NCBI GenBank assembly: GCA_012861695.1
Contig: JAAOOA010000157.1
Coordinates: 366,501-430,500, forward strand
DNA from: Trematomus loennbergii
Lineage: Eukaryota > Chordata > Actinopteri > Perciformes > Nototheniidae
Direction of reading: 5' to 3'
DNA: 64,000 nucleotides
A model generated the notes under the pieces. It saw only the letters and a program-made list of their open reading frames with translations, did no database searches and was not told the DNA's origin. Within the stretch, counting starts at the first letter, position 1. Each line of letters opens with the position of its first letter. Positions 2,426-63,650 of this stretch are shown in pieces. A program made the translations under genes and the position numbers.

Positions 2426-3170
2426 TCAACTCACACACTAACAGCAACTTTGAACACTAACCGACATATTGTTATACAAACGATAATGGTTAATGTAGTG
2501 TAAAGCCATGTAGAATAGAATGGTGCAGGAACAAGTCCTAAAACCTGGAAATAAGTTAGCATTTTACAACATCCCGTTTCCGATTGTAAAATGTGTTTTT
2601 GGTAAGACGCCTGAAAAAGGCACTCGTAAAAACTAAATAGATTTTTCCCTTTTTGTTCCAGAACATTAAACACATCAGTTAATACCCCACTGATGGATTT
2701 CCGAAGCATCTATGGGTGATAAACACTTTGCTAACAAGTGACTAAATGAAACCACTGAATGTCATCACAATAAACACGAGTCCCTCTTTAGCCTGAGGTG
2801 GGAAGTAGTGGAGTACAAATACTTAAGTATATATTTTTATTTTTACTTCTTACATTTTGAACACAAATACCTGTACTTTCTACTTGTTACATTTTCCAAA
2901 CAGGCTGGTTCCTTTAGTTTGAATGTGTGTTTGGTGGCGTGGTCATTATTATTTAGAGTCATTGCGTGCCTATTGATTTGAACACGATCCGTATATCCAT
3001 TATTTCCTGGTCTTCTCTAAAGAAGAGGGACTCGAGTTCTCGGCTCGAGTCCATTCTGTCTATTCCCATCATCCTCTGAACCAGAAGCAACTGCTGCGCC
3101 TTATTATCCCAAACCAGCAAGTAACGGAGCGAGGCAGAACCTGGCCGCAGAGGCAGCTAGAGGAATAAAG

Positions 3171-3314
3171 ATGGAGGTTAGGGAGGAAGAGGAAGAGTCA
3201 GAGACAGGTGATGAAGTTAGCGACAAGACTGAGTGCAGCAGAGATATTAATCTCCCTCACCCATGGCCATATATGAGGGAGATGTTCGAAATGATCGGCA
3301 TCAAAAACGATTGA
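3171..3314 (+). pseudogene. hAT transposase N-terminal fragment (47 codons)
   Basis: The frame opens with an acidic stretch (MEVREEEEESETGDE) and then reads LPHPWPYMREMFEMIG before stopping at 3312-3314. The HPWPY..EMF block is the segment just before the BED-like zinc finger in a widespread teleost hAT transposase. The zinc finger and the catalytic RNase H-like domain do not follow, so this is a relic. It lies 380 bases inside the left terminus of the composite hAT element and probably belongs to it. Confidence 0.6.
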
Positions 3315-3893
3315 GTTGGGTTACGTGCCAGGCAGGCTGTACTTGTGTGCTTTTCCTTCCCTCCTGCTTTTCTCTCTTCTCCCTGGCTGCAGTCCAATAG
3401 TCCATTTAGCTTAGGAACCTTCCTAACGGAGTGAAATGACCCTCAGTGGCAGCCATGATAAGTGCTGTTCGAATTCTCTAAATGAAAGGAAAGGAGGTTT
3501 CAAACTTCCTTTATAACCTCCTTTAGCTTAGGAACCACTGGACCTCCCTAACCTAAAGGAGAGGAGAAAATGCTGCCCCACAATGCCTTGCGGCCGCGGC
3601 ATTTGCCGTCACACAACAGTCGGCCGTTCACGGAAACAACCGATTATGAACGAGAAATGATATCATGAAAGTTACGGTGCTTATTAAGCTTTTTAAAACG
3701 TATGTGGTAAGTTGCCAAAGTGCTTTGTTTTGAACGTTCATCAGTATTATAATCAAAAAGAGAAATATGAACGTTAGTTTTTACTGAAATGATCAAATAA
3801 AGTCAACATTTCACAGTCTTTAGTTGAGGTTTGTTCAACTTTTAAAAGATGTTTGAATGGTGATATACACAGTGATAGATATTAAGGACTAAT

Positions 3894-13507: not shown

Positions 13508-14065
13508 CTATGATCGCTGCTTCCAGTCTGAACAGAGCAGCATCTTCCTGAAGGTGTGTCTGAGCTCGGCGCTGCGGAAGGCGTAGATGGCCGGGTCGAT
13601 GGCAGCGTGGCTCATCATCAGCACCATGTGCAGCTCGAACAGGGAGCGGTAACACTCACAGTACGGGTTCATGGGGCACACCGTGAGGAGAATGAGGTGG
13701 AGGAAAAACGGCGTCCAACACACAACGAACGCCCCAAACAGGATGGTCAGAGTCAGGGCCCCTCTCATGCTGCTGCCCCTCCACCGCTGGCGGCCAAACT
13801 TCCCCCCACTGCTGCTGGGCAGGGCAGCAATCTTTCTGGCATGGATGCGTGCCAGCATGAACATGTAGAAGTAGAGGAAGCAGATAATTGCCAAGGAGAC
13901 GACAAAGAAGACAACAAAGCTGATCATGATGAACTTGGAGTGGGAAAACCTCACCATGAGCACGGCTGATACCCCGCATGTTATCCAGATTACCCCAAGA
14001 TAGCCTTTGTGCGCCGCATAGTCATGATGTTGTGGTATCGCAGAGCATGGAAGATCGTGATGTAG
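13508..14065 (-). CDS. mc2r: Melanocortin-2 (ACTH) receptor, exon 2, with a one-base frameshift
   Basis: This exon encodes the second half of a seven-helix melanocortin receptor: YITIFHALRYHNIMTMRRT after the DRY motif, TM4-TM7, the CPMNPYCECY loop, DPAIYAFRS in TM7 and a short tail ending KMLLCSDWKQRS. The short tail and FRSAELRHTFRKML fit MC2R better than MC4R or MC5R. The receptor binds ACTH at the plasma membrane with MRAP and signals through Gs. The acceptor is TTTCTTTCCAG before the exon. As written, the frame stops at TTG GGG TAA (about 13992): four C's at 13993-13996 where five are needed. Downstream the open frame resumes intact to the stop at 13508-13510. The two exons total 911 bases, one short of a multiple of 3. 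Assembly error and pseudogene are both possible. Confidence 0.87.
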   Translation of the reverse strand, partial: LHHDLPCSAIPQHHDYAAHKGYLGVIWITCGVSAVLMVRFSHSKFIMISFVVFFVVSLAIICFLYFYMFMLARIHARKIAALPSSSGGKFGRQRWRGSSMRGALTLTILFGAFVVCWTPFFLHLILLTVCPMNPYCECYRSLFELHMVLMMSHAAIDPAIYAFRSAELRHTFRKMLLCSDWKQRS

Positions 14066-14747
14066 CTGGAAAGAAAAACAAGTGATTCTATTATATGCTC
14101 AGTTAAGATTTTGGTGTTGTGTTACACTTGTGCTGTACACTGCATAAATAATATGTATAAGGTCCAACTGAAATCTCATTAAGCTTGTTGTCAAAATCTA
14201 TGCCTCATCCGGCCTTTCCTCAAACTGGAGAGACACATTTAGCAACTATGGATAATTTGATGAATGAATTTCATGCATGTTTAGAGTCACTTCATATTTG
14301 TATACCATACTCGCATGATCTGAAATGAGTGGCTGTGTGGAAGGTGTCAAATATTGTAAACAAGGTACTACTAGAAAGTGACACTTACAGTCCTTGTGGT
14401 AAAGCGTGCATGCAATATTGTAGTGGGCTTTAAATGAGCTCTGGATCTATGAGGCAGAGCCCTGAGGAAAGTTTAGACTTTCACCAAATTCTCCCCAGAG
14501 TCCTGTTAGTGAGGCCTGATGAATTTAAATATGAGCAGAGGATAATTGGTTGTAGGGTCCACAGTCCACAGAGAAACTAAAGAGCACAGCAGTAAAATGG
14601 AACTAAACTGCCTTGCAACGGGGATTCTGGTGTATTAGTGGGGTGGAATCAATGTATACCATCACAGATGCAAGTCCACCCCTCACTCTTTGAAGCATAT
14701 GGTTTAAAAATGCTGGAAACGTGCAAATCAAAGCCATTCATACATAC
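14066..14747 (-). other. mc2r: mc2r intron splitting the DRY motif
   Basis: The minus-strand donor is GACCG|GTATGT and the acceptor TTTCTTTCCAG|CTACATC. Joining restores GAC CGC TAC, the DRY motif at the end of TM3, with the intron inside the Arg codon. Introns in this place are known for mc2r and mc5r of pufferfish, while most other melanocortin receptors are intronless. Nothing else is recognised in its 682 bases. Confidence 0.85.
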
Positions 14748-15100
14748 CGGTCCACAGCAATAGCCAGGAAACTGCTAATGGAGCCAACAAAGGACATACA
14801 CAGCAGGGAGTCCATCACATCATCCAGGTTCATCTCAGAGGAACCTTTCTTCTCCAGCTGGCCCACGTTGGCAAACACAATCATCAGGGTCTCCCAGGTT
14901 TTAGTGAGGCTGGCCATGGTGTTGAAGGCTGCCAGGCTGCAGATGAAGCAGAACATGGGGGAGTGGAGGTTCCTGTTGAGTATGACGGAGACCACAACCA
15001 GCAGATTCTCAGCCAGGCTCACCACACCGATGGTGAAGAAGAGAGGGACAGGAACCTTTACCTCGGGGCAGTCCGTCTGATTCACTGTGGTGGTGTTCAT
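14748..15100 (-). CDS. mc2r: Melanocortin-2 (ACTH) receptor, exon 1
   Basis: The exon codes for 117 residues plus two bases of the next codon. The short extracellular N-terminus begins MNTTTVNQTDC with two N-glycosylation sequons (N2, N7). TM1 follows (LFFTIGVVSLAENLLVVVSV), then TM2 with NLHSPMFCFICSLAAFNTMAS and TM3 leading to LAIAVDR. I chose the ATG at 15098-15100 because it gives the usual short melanocortin N-terminus and no better upstream start is visible. TM2 shows AFN where melanocortin receptors usually carry an acidic SD, which may matter for ligand binding. The exon ends at a canonical GTATGT donor. The mc5r gene, often a neighbour, is not in this window. Confidence 0.88.
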
Positions 15101-43135: not shown

Positions 43136-44596
43136 TCACCAGTCCTGTGTTGCCACAGCAAGTACAGACGATGAGAAAGAGCCAGACATATCCAAGAGAT
43201 AAAACTTTATGAAGGGGCCTGGCGTTGACCAAGACGCCGCCGTGCATATATCCTCCACACTCACACCGCTGAATAAGGCTGTTGATGCAGCCACAGCTCG
43301 TGTGGAGTGCGCACGGACCCCCATGGGACAGGCTCTCCCTGCCTGCTTGTAGGCGTGTGCAATGGTTTCACAAAGCCAGCCTGCCAGGCGTTTCTTGGAC
43401 AGAGCTTTTCCAGTCACCCCGCCCCCGAAGCACACAAACAGCTGTTCAGTGCGTCTCAGGGTAGCTGTGCGCTCTACATAATATGCTAATGCGCGCACCG
43501 GGCAGAGGAGGTGTAATTTAGCTTCTCTAGCCCCCCCATGGGGTGGAAGACTAAAACCCCCCAACTGAATAGCCCTCGACCTGAACTCACTCCTTAGGCT
43601 CTTGGGCACAAAGGAGGGGTTCGGTCTGAGTGTCGCCCCACTCTGGTCACCCCGAATCAATAAACAGCTCGGGTGCACCGACAGAGCGGTTAACTCGGAC
43701 ACTCTTTTGGCTGACGTTAAGGCAAGTAGCAACGCTGTCTTCCACGACAGTGCTTTCAGGGAGGAGAGCTCAAGAGGCTCAAATGGCCCCGTGACCAAGG
43801 CCTCGAGCACCAGCGGCAGGTCCCACTGTGGGGCGGAGGCGTGCACCACCGGGCGCAGCCTCCTGACCCCCTGTAAAAACCGCAACATCAGTGGATGAGA
43901 GAAGGCTGACCTGCCGTTGAACCCCTCATGACAGGACGAGATGGCTGCTGCATACACCTTCACTGTGGAATGAGCAAGCCCTCTGTCCACCAGTAACTGT
44001 AAGAAGGATAAAATAGAGCCCAACTCACAAGATAGGGGCTCTATTCCCCGCTCCTCACACCAATGCTGGAATCTCAACCACTTCGGCCTGTAACAGGCTG
44101 TGGTGGATTCTGCTCTAGCTGCCTGGATAGACTGAATAACGCTGTCAGACAATCCACCCTGTCTCAGCCTGTCCCTCTCAGGAGCCAAGCCTGAAGAGGA
44201 CGGCCCAGAGTGGGTAACGCCCCGATTGCACCTGCCTCTTGAGACATCGCCCCCCAGAACTGGGGGATCGCCCAGGGCTGGCCCACCTTCATCTGTGTCA
44301 TTTCTGAGTACCACGGAGCCCCGACGCGATCCGGTGCCACCAGAATGACTGCCAGACGTTCTCGCCTCACTCTCCCCAGGAGAGGGAGAATGAGACGCAG
44401 CGGTGGAAAGGCGTATAGCAGCTTTTTTGGCCATGGCTCGTGTGCAAACGCGTCCACCCCCAAAGGCGGGTCGTCGCTCAGGGCCATGGAAAACCACAGG
44501 GCACAGTGGCTGTTGCGCCGGCTGGCGAACAGGTCCACTTCCGCTCTCCCGAACTGGGCCCAGATCTGCTTCACCACCTCCGGGTGAAGCGTCCAT
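43136..44596 (-). CDS. DIRS tyrosine recombinase (YR) frame, 486 codons
   Basis: The frame is open for 486 codons. The C-terminal catalytic domain has the tyrosine-recombinase residues in order: Arg298 (ALTSAKRVSELTAL), His430 and Arg433 (HSTRAVAAS) and the nucleophile Tyr466 (FIKFYLLD). A SAM-like core-binding region precedes it (AESTTACYRPKWLRFQHWCE, about 162-181). It joins the circular DIRS cDNA to the genome. The first ~140 codons overlap the end of the pol region in another frame and are probably not native, so the true start is likely nearer SSSGLAPERDRLRQGG. This is the best preserved frame in the window. Confidence 0.85.
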   Translation of the reverse strand: MDASPGGGEADLGPVRESGSGPVRQPAQQPLCPVVFHGPERRPAFGGGRVCTRAMAKKAAIRLSTAASHSPSPGESEARTSGSHSGGTGSRRGSVVLRNDTDEGGPALGDPPVLGGDVSRGRCNRGVTHSGPSSSGLAPERDRLRQGGLSDSVIQSIQAARAESTTACYRPKWLRFQHWCEERGIEPLSCELGSILSFLQLLVDRGLAHSTVKVYAAAISSCHEGFNGRSAFSHPLMLRFLQGVRRLRPVVHASAPQWDLPLVLEALVTGPFEPLELSSLKALSWKTALLLALTSAKRVSELTALSVHPSCLLIRGDQSGATLRPNPSFVPKSLRSEFRSRAIQLGGFSLPPHGGAREAKLHLLCPVRALAYYVERTATLRRTEQLFVCFGGGVTGKALSKKRLAGWLCETIAHAYKQAGRACPMGVRAHSTRAVAASTALFSGVSVEDICTAASWSTPGPFIKFYLLDMSGSFSSSVLAVATQDW

Positions 44597-45984
44597 TCGC
44601 CTGGCAGGGGGCCGCCCCTCGACATGAGGTCGGCCCCCTGTTCTCCAGTCCCGGGATATGGAGGGCTCTCAGAGATAATACCACCTCTGATGCCCATAAC
44701 CACAGCCTCTCCGCTGTGGCCAACAAGGCGGCGGAGCGGACTCCGCCCTGCCTGTTGATATAAGCCACTGTGGTGCTGTTGTCGCTCCTGACCAATACAT
44801 GTCTCCCTTGAATTAGGGGCATGAAATGCTGGAGGACTAACACTACCGCCCGTAGCTCTAGGAGGTTGCTGTGTCGTGTTTCTGTTAGAGACCAGCGCCC
44901 ACCTATAGCCCTCTTCAGGCAGGTCCCTCCCCATCCTGTTCTGGATGCGTCCGTGAACACTGTGATGTAGGAGGTTACCCGCCCCAGTGGAGACCCCCTC
45001 CGGAGGCGCCCGGGAGACCCCCAGAACCGGAGGTTGCCCTCCACTGAGGGGGGGATGGTCACCAGCCGCCGTTTGTGCCTCTTGGGATCCAAACGCAGAC
45101 TGGAAAACCACCTCTGCAGGCGGCGCATATGCAATAACCCCAACGGGACCACAACGTGAGCAGCCGCCATGAGACCCAGAGTCTGCATGACAGCTAAAGC
45201 TGTCACTGTTGCCCCCTGTTGCAGCCTGTGCACCGCCCTGAGAAGGGACGCACGCCTGTTCTCTGACAGGGTGGCACGCAGCGCGTGCATCGAGCACCAC
45301 TCCCAAATACAACGCCTGTTGGTGAGGTATGGGGGTGCTCTTTCCCAATTGATCGCAAAGCCTAATTTGGTTAGGTGTGTGATCAATTGTGCTGTGCAAC
45401 ACATTGCCTGTTCCCGGGACCCAGCCATGACTATGAGGTCGTCTATGTAAAAGAAAACTCTCATGCCCTGGGCGCGCAGCGGTTGAAGCGCTGTGGCCAC
45501 ACATTTGCTGAATGTGCGTGGGGATAGGGAGTAGCCGAACGGGAGTCTGTTGTACTCGTAGGCTATCCCTTGAAAGGCAAAACGCAGATATTTCCTGTGC
45601 TCTGGCACAATCTCCACATGAAAATATGCGTCTTTCAGGTCGATGGTGGTGAACCAATCGCCCGGCTGCACTAGCCCCATTAACTGTTTGATAGTTAACA
45701 TGCGAAATTTCCTGCGGCAAATGTGAAGATTCAGGCTGCGCAAATCTAGAATAGGTCTGAATTCCCCTGTCTTCTTGGAAACCAGGAAGTACATGGAATA
45801 AAAACCCCTTTTTTTGCTGAGGATGCACCACAGACACTGCCTGTTTCTGCACCAAAGCCTGAATCTCTGTTGAGAGGAAACCCATCTCCTCTTGGGATGA
45901 TAAAATTACCTCTCGCATGCCTCTGAATGGAGGTGGGACGCTGCAAAACTGGAGTGAATAACCCCGTTTCAGCGTCCTGTCCAT
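44571..45984 (-). pseudogene. DIRS reverse transcriptase-RNase H, frameshifted
   Basis: The start at 45984 reads MDRTLKRGYSLQFCSVPPPF. Near 45815 the frame shifts at a homopolymer (run of seven T on the plus strand) into the frame open from 45794 to 44571. That frame has YFLVSKKTGEFRPILDLRSL, DLKDAYFHV and the catalytic VFFYIDDLIVM motif, then the RNase H core with FTDASRTGWGG and VRSDNSTTVAYIN. Near 44640 a second shift leads to GADLMSRGGPLPGEWTLHPE and AEVDLFASRRNSH, running to 44164. All catalytic residues I can judge are present, so inactivation rests on the two frame breaks. Confidence 0.88.
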
Positions 45985-46895
45985 CCACTCTGACAGTACA
46001 CAGCTGAGTTTCCATTCCCCATAATATTGAGTTAATGGACAAGCCCTTAGCTGTGGGGCCGCAGCTATAAAGCTGTGATACTCTCTGGTGACCCGTTCCG
46101 CCGCAAAATCCCCCGTGAAAGGAAGATTTGCCCATGGAGGGTCGACACAGAAAGGGCCGATTTTTTATTGAGGTCCCTGAACACACCGTCGCGCGCTCTT
46201 GTGTGAGCGCGCGCTCCACCCTAACGCTGTTCTCATTACCATGGTAACCAGCATTAACCGGAGTTTTTGTTGACGTATGTGTTCACCTGAGGTCCCTGAA
46301 CACACCATGGGCTCTTGAGAGAGCGCGAGCTCCGCCATAATGCAGCTCTTACCACTACGGTAAACTGTATTATTAGGAGCCTTTATTCTAGGCGTAGTGT
46401 GTTCCCTAACCATAATGCGCCGACTAGCAAGTCCCCACCCGCATAGCGCTACTATAGCACTTCCTGCGGTTTATCTCTCTCATCTGCGCATGCCCACTAG
46501 CTATCTCCTTTACAGGAGAAATAACCGGGGTAGCGAGTGGGGAATATGTACAGTCAACAATGTGTGTGAGTGCAGGATTGTGAAAACAATGACACTCAGA
46601 CTTGGATACAGATCACCTTTTCTTTATTAGTTTTCCTAATACAAGGGACCTGGGCATTGAACAGGGAGGAGGTGGGATTCACCCTAGCGTCCTGGGTGGA
46701 GAGACGCTTCCTCCCTCCGCCAGTCAGCTGCGTTTTGGCGGAGCTCCCCACCCGGCGGTTCTCTGCTGCTGCTGAGACTGCCGTGGCCGGGCAGCCCGCC
46801 CCCGTGAGTGCCGGTACGCTGGCCCCACGGGGCTGGTTGAAGAAGCGGAGGGTGCTACCGGCACGGGACTTCGTACCGGCGTCTCTCCCTCCGTC

Positions 46896-48112
46896 TCACC
46901 GTTGCACTGCGTCCGCCGCCCGCGGAGGACGCTGTGACACCTGGGGAGAAGCTAGCGGCAACATGCGGCTAAGCTGCAGCCTCTCTTCCTCCAGACGGCT
47001 GAAACGCTGGGTGACCGAGGCTATAGACCCAAAGAGCCCTTCCGTGGAAACGGGGGCTCCAAGGAGATCTGCTCGGTCCTTTTTGGGCAGCGCGGTGAGT
47101 CCCAGCCACACATGACGAGACGCCACTGTGGCTAAGGACATCACTCGCCCGGCTGCGGTGGCCACTCCATGGATCAGATTATTCATCTGACCTATGCAGC
47201 GGTCCGGATAATCCTCCCCGTCCTGAGACGGGAGAGCGGGGGCGTCTGCTCGAGGAGTAATCAAGGAGACGCCCAACACACCCAGATTATTGCCGCAGCC
47301 GCCATCTGTGAACCGAGCCTGAATTTTATCCAAATATTCTAAGGCTTCCCGGTCCCGCGGCAGCGGGGGCAGAGGTTTCTTCCCCTCCGCCCAACCAGCT
47401 GATCGTGGCAACAGATGGGCCGCCAGGCTCTCGTCGAGGGGGGGCACGCCAGAACACACCGTGTCTGATCGGCCCTGCACCCTGATAATGCCCGACATGG
47501 ATGCTATGGCGGCCTTCGTCCTCAATGGACGCCGCCATGTCGCCTCCACACACTGCCAGATGTCTGGCAACGGGAGACGAAAGCCGGCTGCGCCGGAAGC
47601 ACCGGGCCGTAAAACCCCTGCCTAAGGCGGCTTACAGGCCTCGGTGGCAGCGGTGGGGGGAGCGGTAAGCCTACACGCTCCGCTGCCTGGGTCATCACCG
47701 CTGGGAAGTCCAGTCGCGCAGACCTGAGTGCTGGGCCCTCCTGGCTGTCGGACCCGGGGGTGTCGGACAAGGAGATGTCGTCATCCTCCGTGAAGTCGAC
47801 CACTCGGTCCCTCGGAAGGACGAACTCAAACGGCACGTCCTCCAGGTCGTCCATTTCCACCACCTCGAGGTCCACATCCTCTTCCTCTCCGTGCACCTGC
47901 GGGCCGAACTTCCTCGAGAAGTACTCCGCACGATGCCGGCGGTTTAGCATCGGGATCGAGCAGCAGGAAACACAGGCCGGTGTCTGGCCTGCTCCCTGCT
48001 CAGCGTGATCCTGTCCCAGGCACTGAAAACATTGGCGATGCGGGTCTGCTCCCGCAATCAGTCCAGGGCACGACGGGCAACTGCGATGCTCCAGGAGTGG
48101 CTCCATTTTCAC
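46896..48112 (-). pseudogene. DIRS Gag-like protein, split by a frameshift
   Basis: Frame one (48112-47522) begins MKMEPLLEHRSCPSC and has a Cys/His cluster (CPSCPGL...CFQCLGQDHAEQ) of zinc-knuckle type, then a very acidic middle. Near 47570 it shifts to the frame 47570-46896, which carries PDIWQCVEATWRRP, PPLDESLAAHLLPR, PLPPLPRDREALEYLDKI and VASRHVWLGLTALPKKDR. It probably binds element RNA and builds the particle. Upstream of the pol start, 46165-46890 holds further element sequence without a clear domain. Confidence 0.8.
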
Positions 48113-48178
48113 AATATCTCTCTCTCTACTTCCTTTCTCCCACTTGTACGTCTCGGACTCAGTGCTAGGTTACCACCT

Positions 48179-63006: not shown

Positions 63007-63420
63007 CATGCGGTGACTGAGGCCTTCAGGCTCAGTGGATCCGGCAGCAGCAGCAGCAGGCGTCTGGCTTGATGAAGGATGAAGAGCCCGGTGCACAGAT
63101 GCAGGGATGTGGAGCACGGCCGTGGGCAGGGCACGGGGGGGGCTGGGACCACCTGCCTGCAGGCCGAGCAGCGCATCCCCATCTCCAAAGACGTCATCAC
63201 CTCCTCCGCTGCCTCGGCCATGTGGTTCATCAGGGACGCCTGCGGCATCGTGTGCGCCGTCATCACCTGGGTGCTGGTGCTGTATGCAGAGTTCGTGGTG
63301 CTGTTTGTGATGCTGCTGCCCTCCAAGAATCTGATGTACAGCATTGTGAACGGGACTCTGTTCAACATTCTGGCCTTCCTTGCCCTCGCTTCACACCTCA
63401 GGGCCATGTGCACTGACCCT
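63007..63420 (+). CDS. zdhhc3: DHHC palmitoyltransferase (ZDHHC3-like), first coding exon
   Basis: The exon starts after CTCCTCTCCTCAG; coding begins at ATG 63079 and gives 114 codons to the donor CCT|GTAAGT. The N-terminus [13 protein letters not shown] is cytosolic. Two helices follow: about residues 55-80 ([20 protein letters not shown]) and 87-108 ([20 protein letters not shown]), then TDP of the DPG motif. MWFIRD.CGI and [14 protein letters not shown] match ZDHHC3 more closely than ZDHHC7. The enzyme S-acylates membrane and synaptic proteins at the Golgi. The ATG at 63072 is in another frame and was rejected. Only the N-terminal part lies in the window. Confidence 0.88.
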
Positions 63421-63650
63421 GTAAGTGGCACTTATTTGGTGATATAGAAATTATTCACATTCATTAAGAATTAGTTGACAGGCTAGCAAGGTTTAAAGGA
63501 ACGTTTCTTGCATGAAAGTTTAGGGCACAGTCCTGATAAATGGAGCTTTACTTTCAAAGAGTTATCAGGGAATGTTTAGCCTGTCCCTTCTTTATTTCAT
63601 TATGATGATGCTGCTGAAGTCCTCTACCGTGTGCTCCTGTTTCTTGCTAG

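Follow-up and report, generated by a model that had tools for sequence, protein, structure and literature searches.

The ACTH receptor gene mc2r of Trematomus loennbergii is broken, as assembled, by a single G/C run that is one base short, and we regard this short run as probably an error of the assembly, preferring this to a real null allele. The fish would then have a normal two-exon mc2r, from which the consensus would have dropped a base where ICL2 meets TM4, shortening a homopolymer of five, while the raw reads would carry the longer run. The gene lies in the analysed window, a 64-kb stretch (C157:366501-430500) of a 1.208-Gb assembly in 3,566 contigs. The weights that we attach to this and other explanations are judgements, not computed posteriors.

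Gene structure and frame break

The following features of mc2r were located (positions in the window):

14748..15100, minus strand: coding exon 1 (codons 1-117 and two bases of codon 118), 353 nt
14066..14747, minus strand: intron, phase 2, inside the DRY codons, 682 nt, donor GTATGT
14742..14743, minus strand: second GT of a tandem donor (+4); if used, reads to the natural stop, giving 304 aa with a different ICL2
13508..14065, minus strand: coding exon 2 including the natural stop, 558 nt, with two frames meeting at the short run
13993..13996, minus strand: four-base run, GGGG on the coding strand, where the frame breaks; the proteins of five relatives imply one base more
13990..13992, minus strand: premature TAA after codon 142, from translation of the spliced CDS

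The original prediction, made from the sequence alone, had described two otherwise clean exons with correct splice sites, and this description holds (donor CG/GTATGT, acceptor TTTCCAG/CTAC, the slash marking the junction; no other lesion). It had also placed a one-base loss at 13993-13996 in exon 2 and a stop after about 142 residues near TM4; the coding strand at 13996-13993 indeed gives TTG GGG TAA, and the product ends at residue 142, at the ICL2/TM4 border. The claims that the downstream frame runs open to the natural stop and that the combined exons fall one base short of a multiple of three were likewise confirmed, by a 196-aa open frame ending at 13508 and a spliced CDS of 911 nt (353 + 558). 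With the normal donor, one continuous seven-helix open frame was not found in mc2r, since translation stops after 142 codons. Other runs of at least five bases in the CDS (C5 at nt 140, G6 at 612, T5 at 711) keep the frame, and the short run is the sole lesion of an otherwise intact and conserved gene, which rules out a chance break of an open reading frame in non-coding DNA. The possibility of ribosomal -1 slippage at GGG TAA was considered and set aside.

The identity of the gene is clear from both exons. The best-matching solved chain for exon 1 is human MC2R (1.8e-28), and the downstream frame of exon 2 matches fish ACTH receptors, at 98% with Pagothenia borchgrevinki (85% of the query covered), 97% with Trematomus bernacchii and 94-95% with Dissostichus (85-94% query coverage across relatives). 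The closest match by receptor class is MC2R and not MC1R, MC3R, MC4R or MC5R, and the matches are named ACTH receptors.

Copy number and partner genes

Exon 1 has a single 100% match in the assembly, and the next matches, at no more than 47%, are other receptors; judged by exon 1, there is no intact copy of mc2r elsewhere in the assembly. A real null allele, shared with Dissostichus mawsoni through incomplete lineage sorting, introgression or recurrent slippage, is a possible but rather doubtful alternative to an assembly error, and the state of the related genes speaks against it. The mc4r gene (named by protein search) is a single open frame, as is a second gene, probably mc1r. The mc5r gene is also on contig C157 and is interrupted by introns; three of its exons were located, the first coding exon not among them:

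L007:3138-3269, contig C157: mc5r exon, open in frame
L007:7429-7623, contig C157: mc5r exon, open in frame
L009:about 3114-3700, contig C157: mc5r exon, open in frame

Two TGA codons in one mc5r match had raised the possibility of decay, which was dropped as both stops fall past the splice site. MC2R needs MRAP1 to reach the cell surface, and mrap1 is present and open through three exons; two mrap2 exons were seen and are also open, the two genes being putatively told apart by their sequence features.

Probable homopolymer errors in the assembly

A 7tm_1 profile search of the assembly gave at least 149 rows (147 of 2,447 candidates scored) and was the source of duplicate pairs. Stops lay inside 7 of the at least 149 rows, counted by hand, and as the search ranks intact genes first, this yields no unbiased error rate. 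Four near-identical locus pairs could be aligned:

Pair 1: 1,088 columns, 2 substitutions, 2 one-base gaps
Pair 2: 1,228 columns, no differences
Pair 3: 1,099 columns, no differences
Pair 4 (L042 and L043): 1,085 columns, no substitution, one gap

Together the pairs hold 3 one-base indels and 2 substitutions in 4,500 aligned columns, a count from four pairs chosen among high-scoring intact matches in which any of the three indels could be a real variant. In real variation, substitutions are expected to exceed indels several-fold. Both gaps of pair 1 precede the start codon that their gene probably uses.

Pair 4 is a somatostatin-receptor-2-like gene on contigs C103 (26.7 Mb) and C538, in which a C run is one base shorter in L042 (L042:30-40 against L043:1044-1055). 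The frame of L042 is lost soon after the ATG, whereas its otherwise identical twin is open from the ATG, and the assembly therefore has exactly such slips in coding sequence. As in mc2r, a G/C homopolymer is one base shorter and the frame is lost in a gene without further damage; unlike mc2r, whose exon 1 is single-copy, this gene has a second copy that is open. Many receptor genes score equally on two contigs, one large and one small (for example C228/C658, C20/C730 and C116/C758), a pattern pointing to haplotypes left uncollapsed, or to duplicates, in the 1.2-Gb assembly; cryonotothenioid genome sizes are given as 0.71-1.03 Gb (PMC10256766, Table 1).

The mc2r site, too, is a G/C homopolymer. 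That the assembly makes such errors counts against a real null allele, and that one slip in a 0.9-kb gene is unsurprising here, whereas a real mc2r null is rare beforehand, strongly favours an error before the D. mawsoni gene model is weighed. Further points in favour of an error are that mrap1 is intact, that mc2r has no second lesion and that five of six other notothenioid species are intact. The homopolymer sequencing error put forward in the original prediction is thus backed by the C-run parallel in the same assembly and by the intact mrap1, but has to contend with a gene model of D. mawsoni that carries the same lesion.

The Dissostichus mawsoni gene model and the tandem donor

The top protein match of mc2r is P0002, the D. 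mawsoni MC2R gene model F7725_019093 of 304 aa. It reads DRYLHHDLPCSAIPQHHDYAAHKGYLGVIW where P0003-P0007 read DRYITIFHALRYHNIMTMRRTK(A/T)ILGVIW, and among the 168 other proteins compared, P0002 alone carries the shifted ICL2 words. Of six other notothenioid species, five have MC2R proteins that are unbroken across the site; D. mawsoni is the sixth, so that the lesion in an independent assembly is implied by the gene model of one other species and absent from the proteins of five. As in the window, the ICL2 of the D. mawsoni model is out of frame and the frame is regained at GVIW; unlike the window, the model is annotated at full length through a donor 4 nt downstream. When the window sequence is spliced at this +4 donor, the computed product has 304 aa without an internal stop and agrees with the D. 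mawsoni ICL2 at every residue. The 304-aa model would be explained only by a short run in the D. mawsoni assembly together with the predictor's use of the +4 donor, and from the protein sequence we infer that this assembly has the same short run. An MC4R search, made as a control for D. mawsoni, gave no notothenioid name among the best 120 of 1,230 matches.

This match supports a real null allele and pulls weight back from an error, to an extent set by the error rate of the D. mawsoni assembly. For one run to be hit by independent errors in both assemblies would take a coincidence, unless the run is systematically miscalled. If the short run in the window is an assembly error, the D. mawsoni contraction would stem from a second, unconnected error there or from some other cause.

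The donor region GTATGTATG (14741-14747, minus strand) is a tandem of the GYNNGY type, with two GY dinucleotides 4 nt apart. Human transcriptomes are known to contain this class of donor, whose shift, according to the available text of the source, normally disrupts the frame (PMC8055015). In mc2r the shift could do the opposite: a real allele might be masked by splicing, the +4 GT offsetting the missing base to give a full-length 304-aa receptor with a rewritten ICL2, as the agreement of the computed product with the D. mawsoni model in length and ICL2 would allow. We consider this very improbable. Among 58 GT sites scored with a rough frequency matrix, the first GT ranks 2 and the second, far weaker, ranks 12. 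The frame would moreover be restored on the mc2r allele at the price of ICL2, whose ITIFHALRYHNIMT segment is nearly invariant among the compared MC2R proteins and would be replaced by +4 splicing, so coupling of the rewritten receptor would probably fail. Finally, a gene predictor would pick the +4 donor to keep the frame, and the D. mawsoni model is therefore no evidence that the donor is used.

Comparison with other notothenioids

Ten proteins were tabulated, from the window, D. mawsoni, P. borchgrevinki, T. bernacchii, D. eleginoides, N. coriiceps, P. georgianus and three outgroups. With the disturbed segment left out, 279 positions were compared, and the mc2r product of the window differs from P. 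borchgrevinki at 2 of them, from T. bernacchii at 5, from D. eleginoides at 11 and from D. mawsoni at 12. T246 is common only to the window, P. borchgrevinki and T. bernacchii, and these comparisons place the fish among the notothenioids, near Trematomus. V265M is the sole substitution private to the window, and neither the CDS check nor the ten-protein table revealed a second lesion or relaxed constraint in the window copy, which weighs against a real null allele. D. mawsoni has 6 private substitutions (including R157T) and its sister D. eleginoides 2, an excess that may be a weak hint of relaxed constraint and, to that degree, would favour a real null.

At residue 159, 17 codons downstream of the break, the window, D. 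mawsoni and P. borchgrevinki have S, whereas all seven remaining rows (T. bernacchii, D. eleginoides, N. coriiceps, P. georgianus and the three outgroups) have F. The available text of PMC10910785 gives D. eleginoides and D. mawsoni as sister species, and the distribution of S159 would run against the expected species tree. Such a pattern, in which the window and D. mawsoni share S159 as they would on a shared haplotype, speaks for a real null allele and against an error; S159 may also be common to them independently of the lesion, or a homoplasy. As S159 is present in the intact protein of P. borchgrevinki, it is by itself no marker of the lesion, and as D. eleginoides and the close relatives are intact, sharing of the lesion needs a discordant history. 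It is very improbable that a null haplotype crosses species borders between this fish and D. mawsoni and is turned by the 4-nt tandem donor into a full-length receptor with a rewritten ICL2, the choice of donor then switching between a silent and an altered ACTH axis.

The MC2R proteins of P. borchgrevinki, T. bernacchii and D. eleginoides are, like that of the window, products of a two-exon gene, and unlike it they are unbroken through ICL2 and TM4. Two of these sequences come from PacBio-based assemblies and are intact at the run, which also counts against an error: that of P. borchgrevinki was built from PacBio CLR reads (PMC11708224, as far as its available text goes) and that of T. bernacchii from PacBio plus 10X (PMC10256766). 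When truncated relatives were sought with the 142-aa product (49 matches), no retrieved protein ended at the break. In Pseudochaenichthys georgianus, most of TM4-TM5 is missing from an MC2R isoform annotated as X3 (P0112, 262 aa). Predicted structures of P0002 and P0003 had mean pLDDT values of 47.9 and 44.1, below a usable level. A literature search gave, among the matches listed, no work on mc2r loss in notothenioids.

Implications

MC2R is the only known ACTH receptor. The transcript may be spared nonsense-mediated decay, as its premature stop falls within the final coding exon; if the allele is real, a 142-residue three-helix fragment may be made, and interrenal ACTH signalling would be lost or halved. 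A real allele would mean that a wild vertebrate has lost its ACTH receptor naturally, in a loss common to two genera, and would make cortisol control in Antarctic fish directly testable.

A CRISPR zebrafish mc2r null (PMC12923660) resembles the window in that a frameshift leads to a truncated receptor, and differs in that it is engineered and truncated earlier (57 and 29 residues). In the accessible part of that paper, basal cortisol of the nulls is unchanged, the rise under stress is reduced and ACTH injection brings them to 5-12% of the wild-type level. That adult knockouts exist with blunted cortisol favours a real allele; since they keep basal cortisol, an mc2r null would, on the portion of the paper available, be survivable, and such an allele could persist.

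An erroneous short run, which we think probable, would be a caution that the hormone-receptor genes of this assembly contain frame-breaking homopolymer contractions. Automatic annotation can hide such contractions, and the shifted donor of D. mawsoni may be an instance of this.

Other features of the window

Rfam and tRNA scans of the 64-kb window gave no matches. Judged by eye, a putative DHHC palmitoyltransferase exon lies at 63076-63447 on the plus strand, and long overlapping open reading frames at 43136-48169 on the minus strand form a putative retrotransposon that would include reverse transcriptase and recombinase-like segments.
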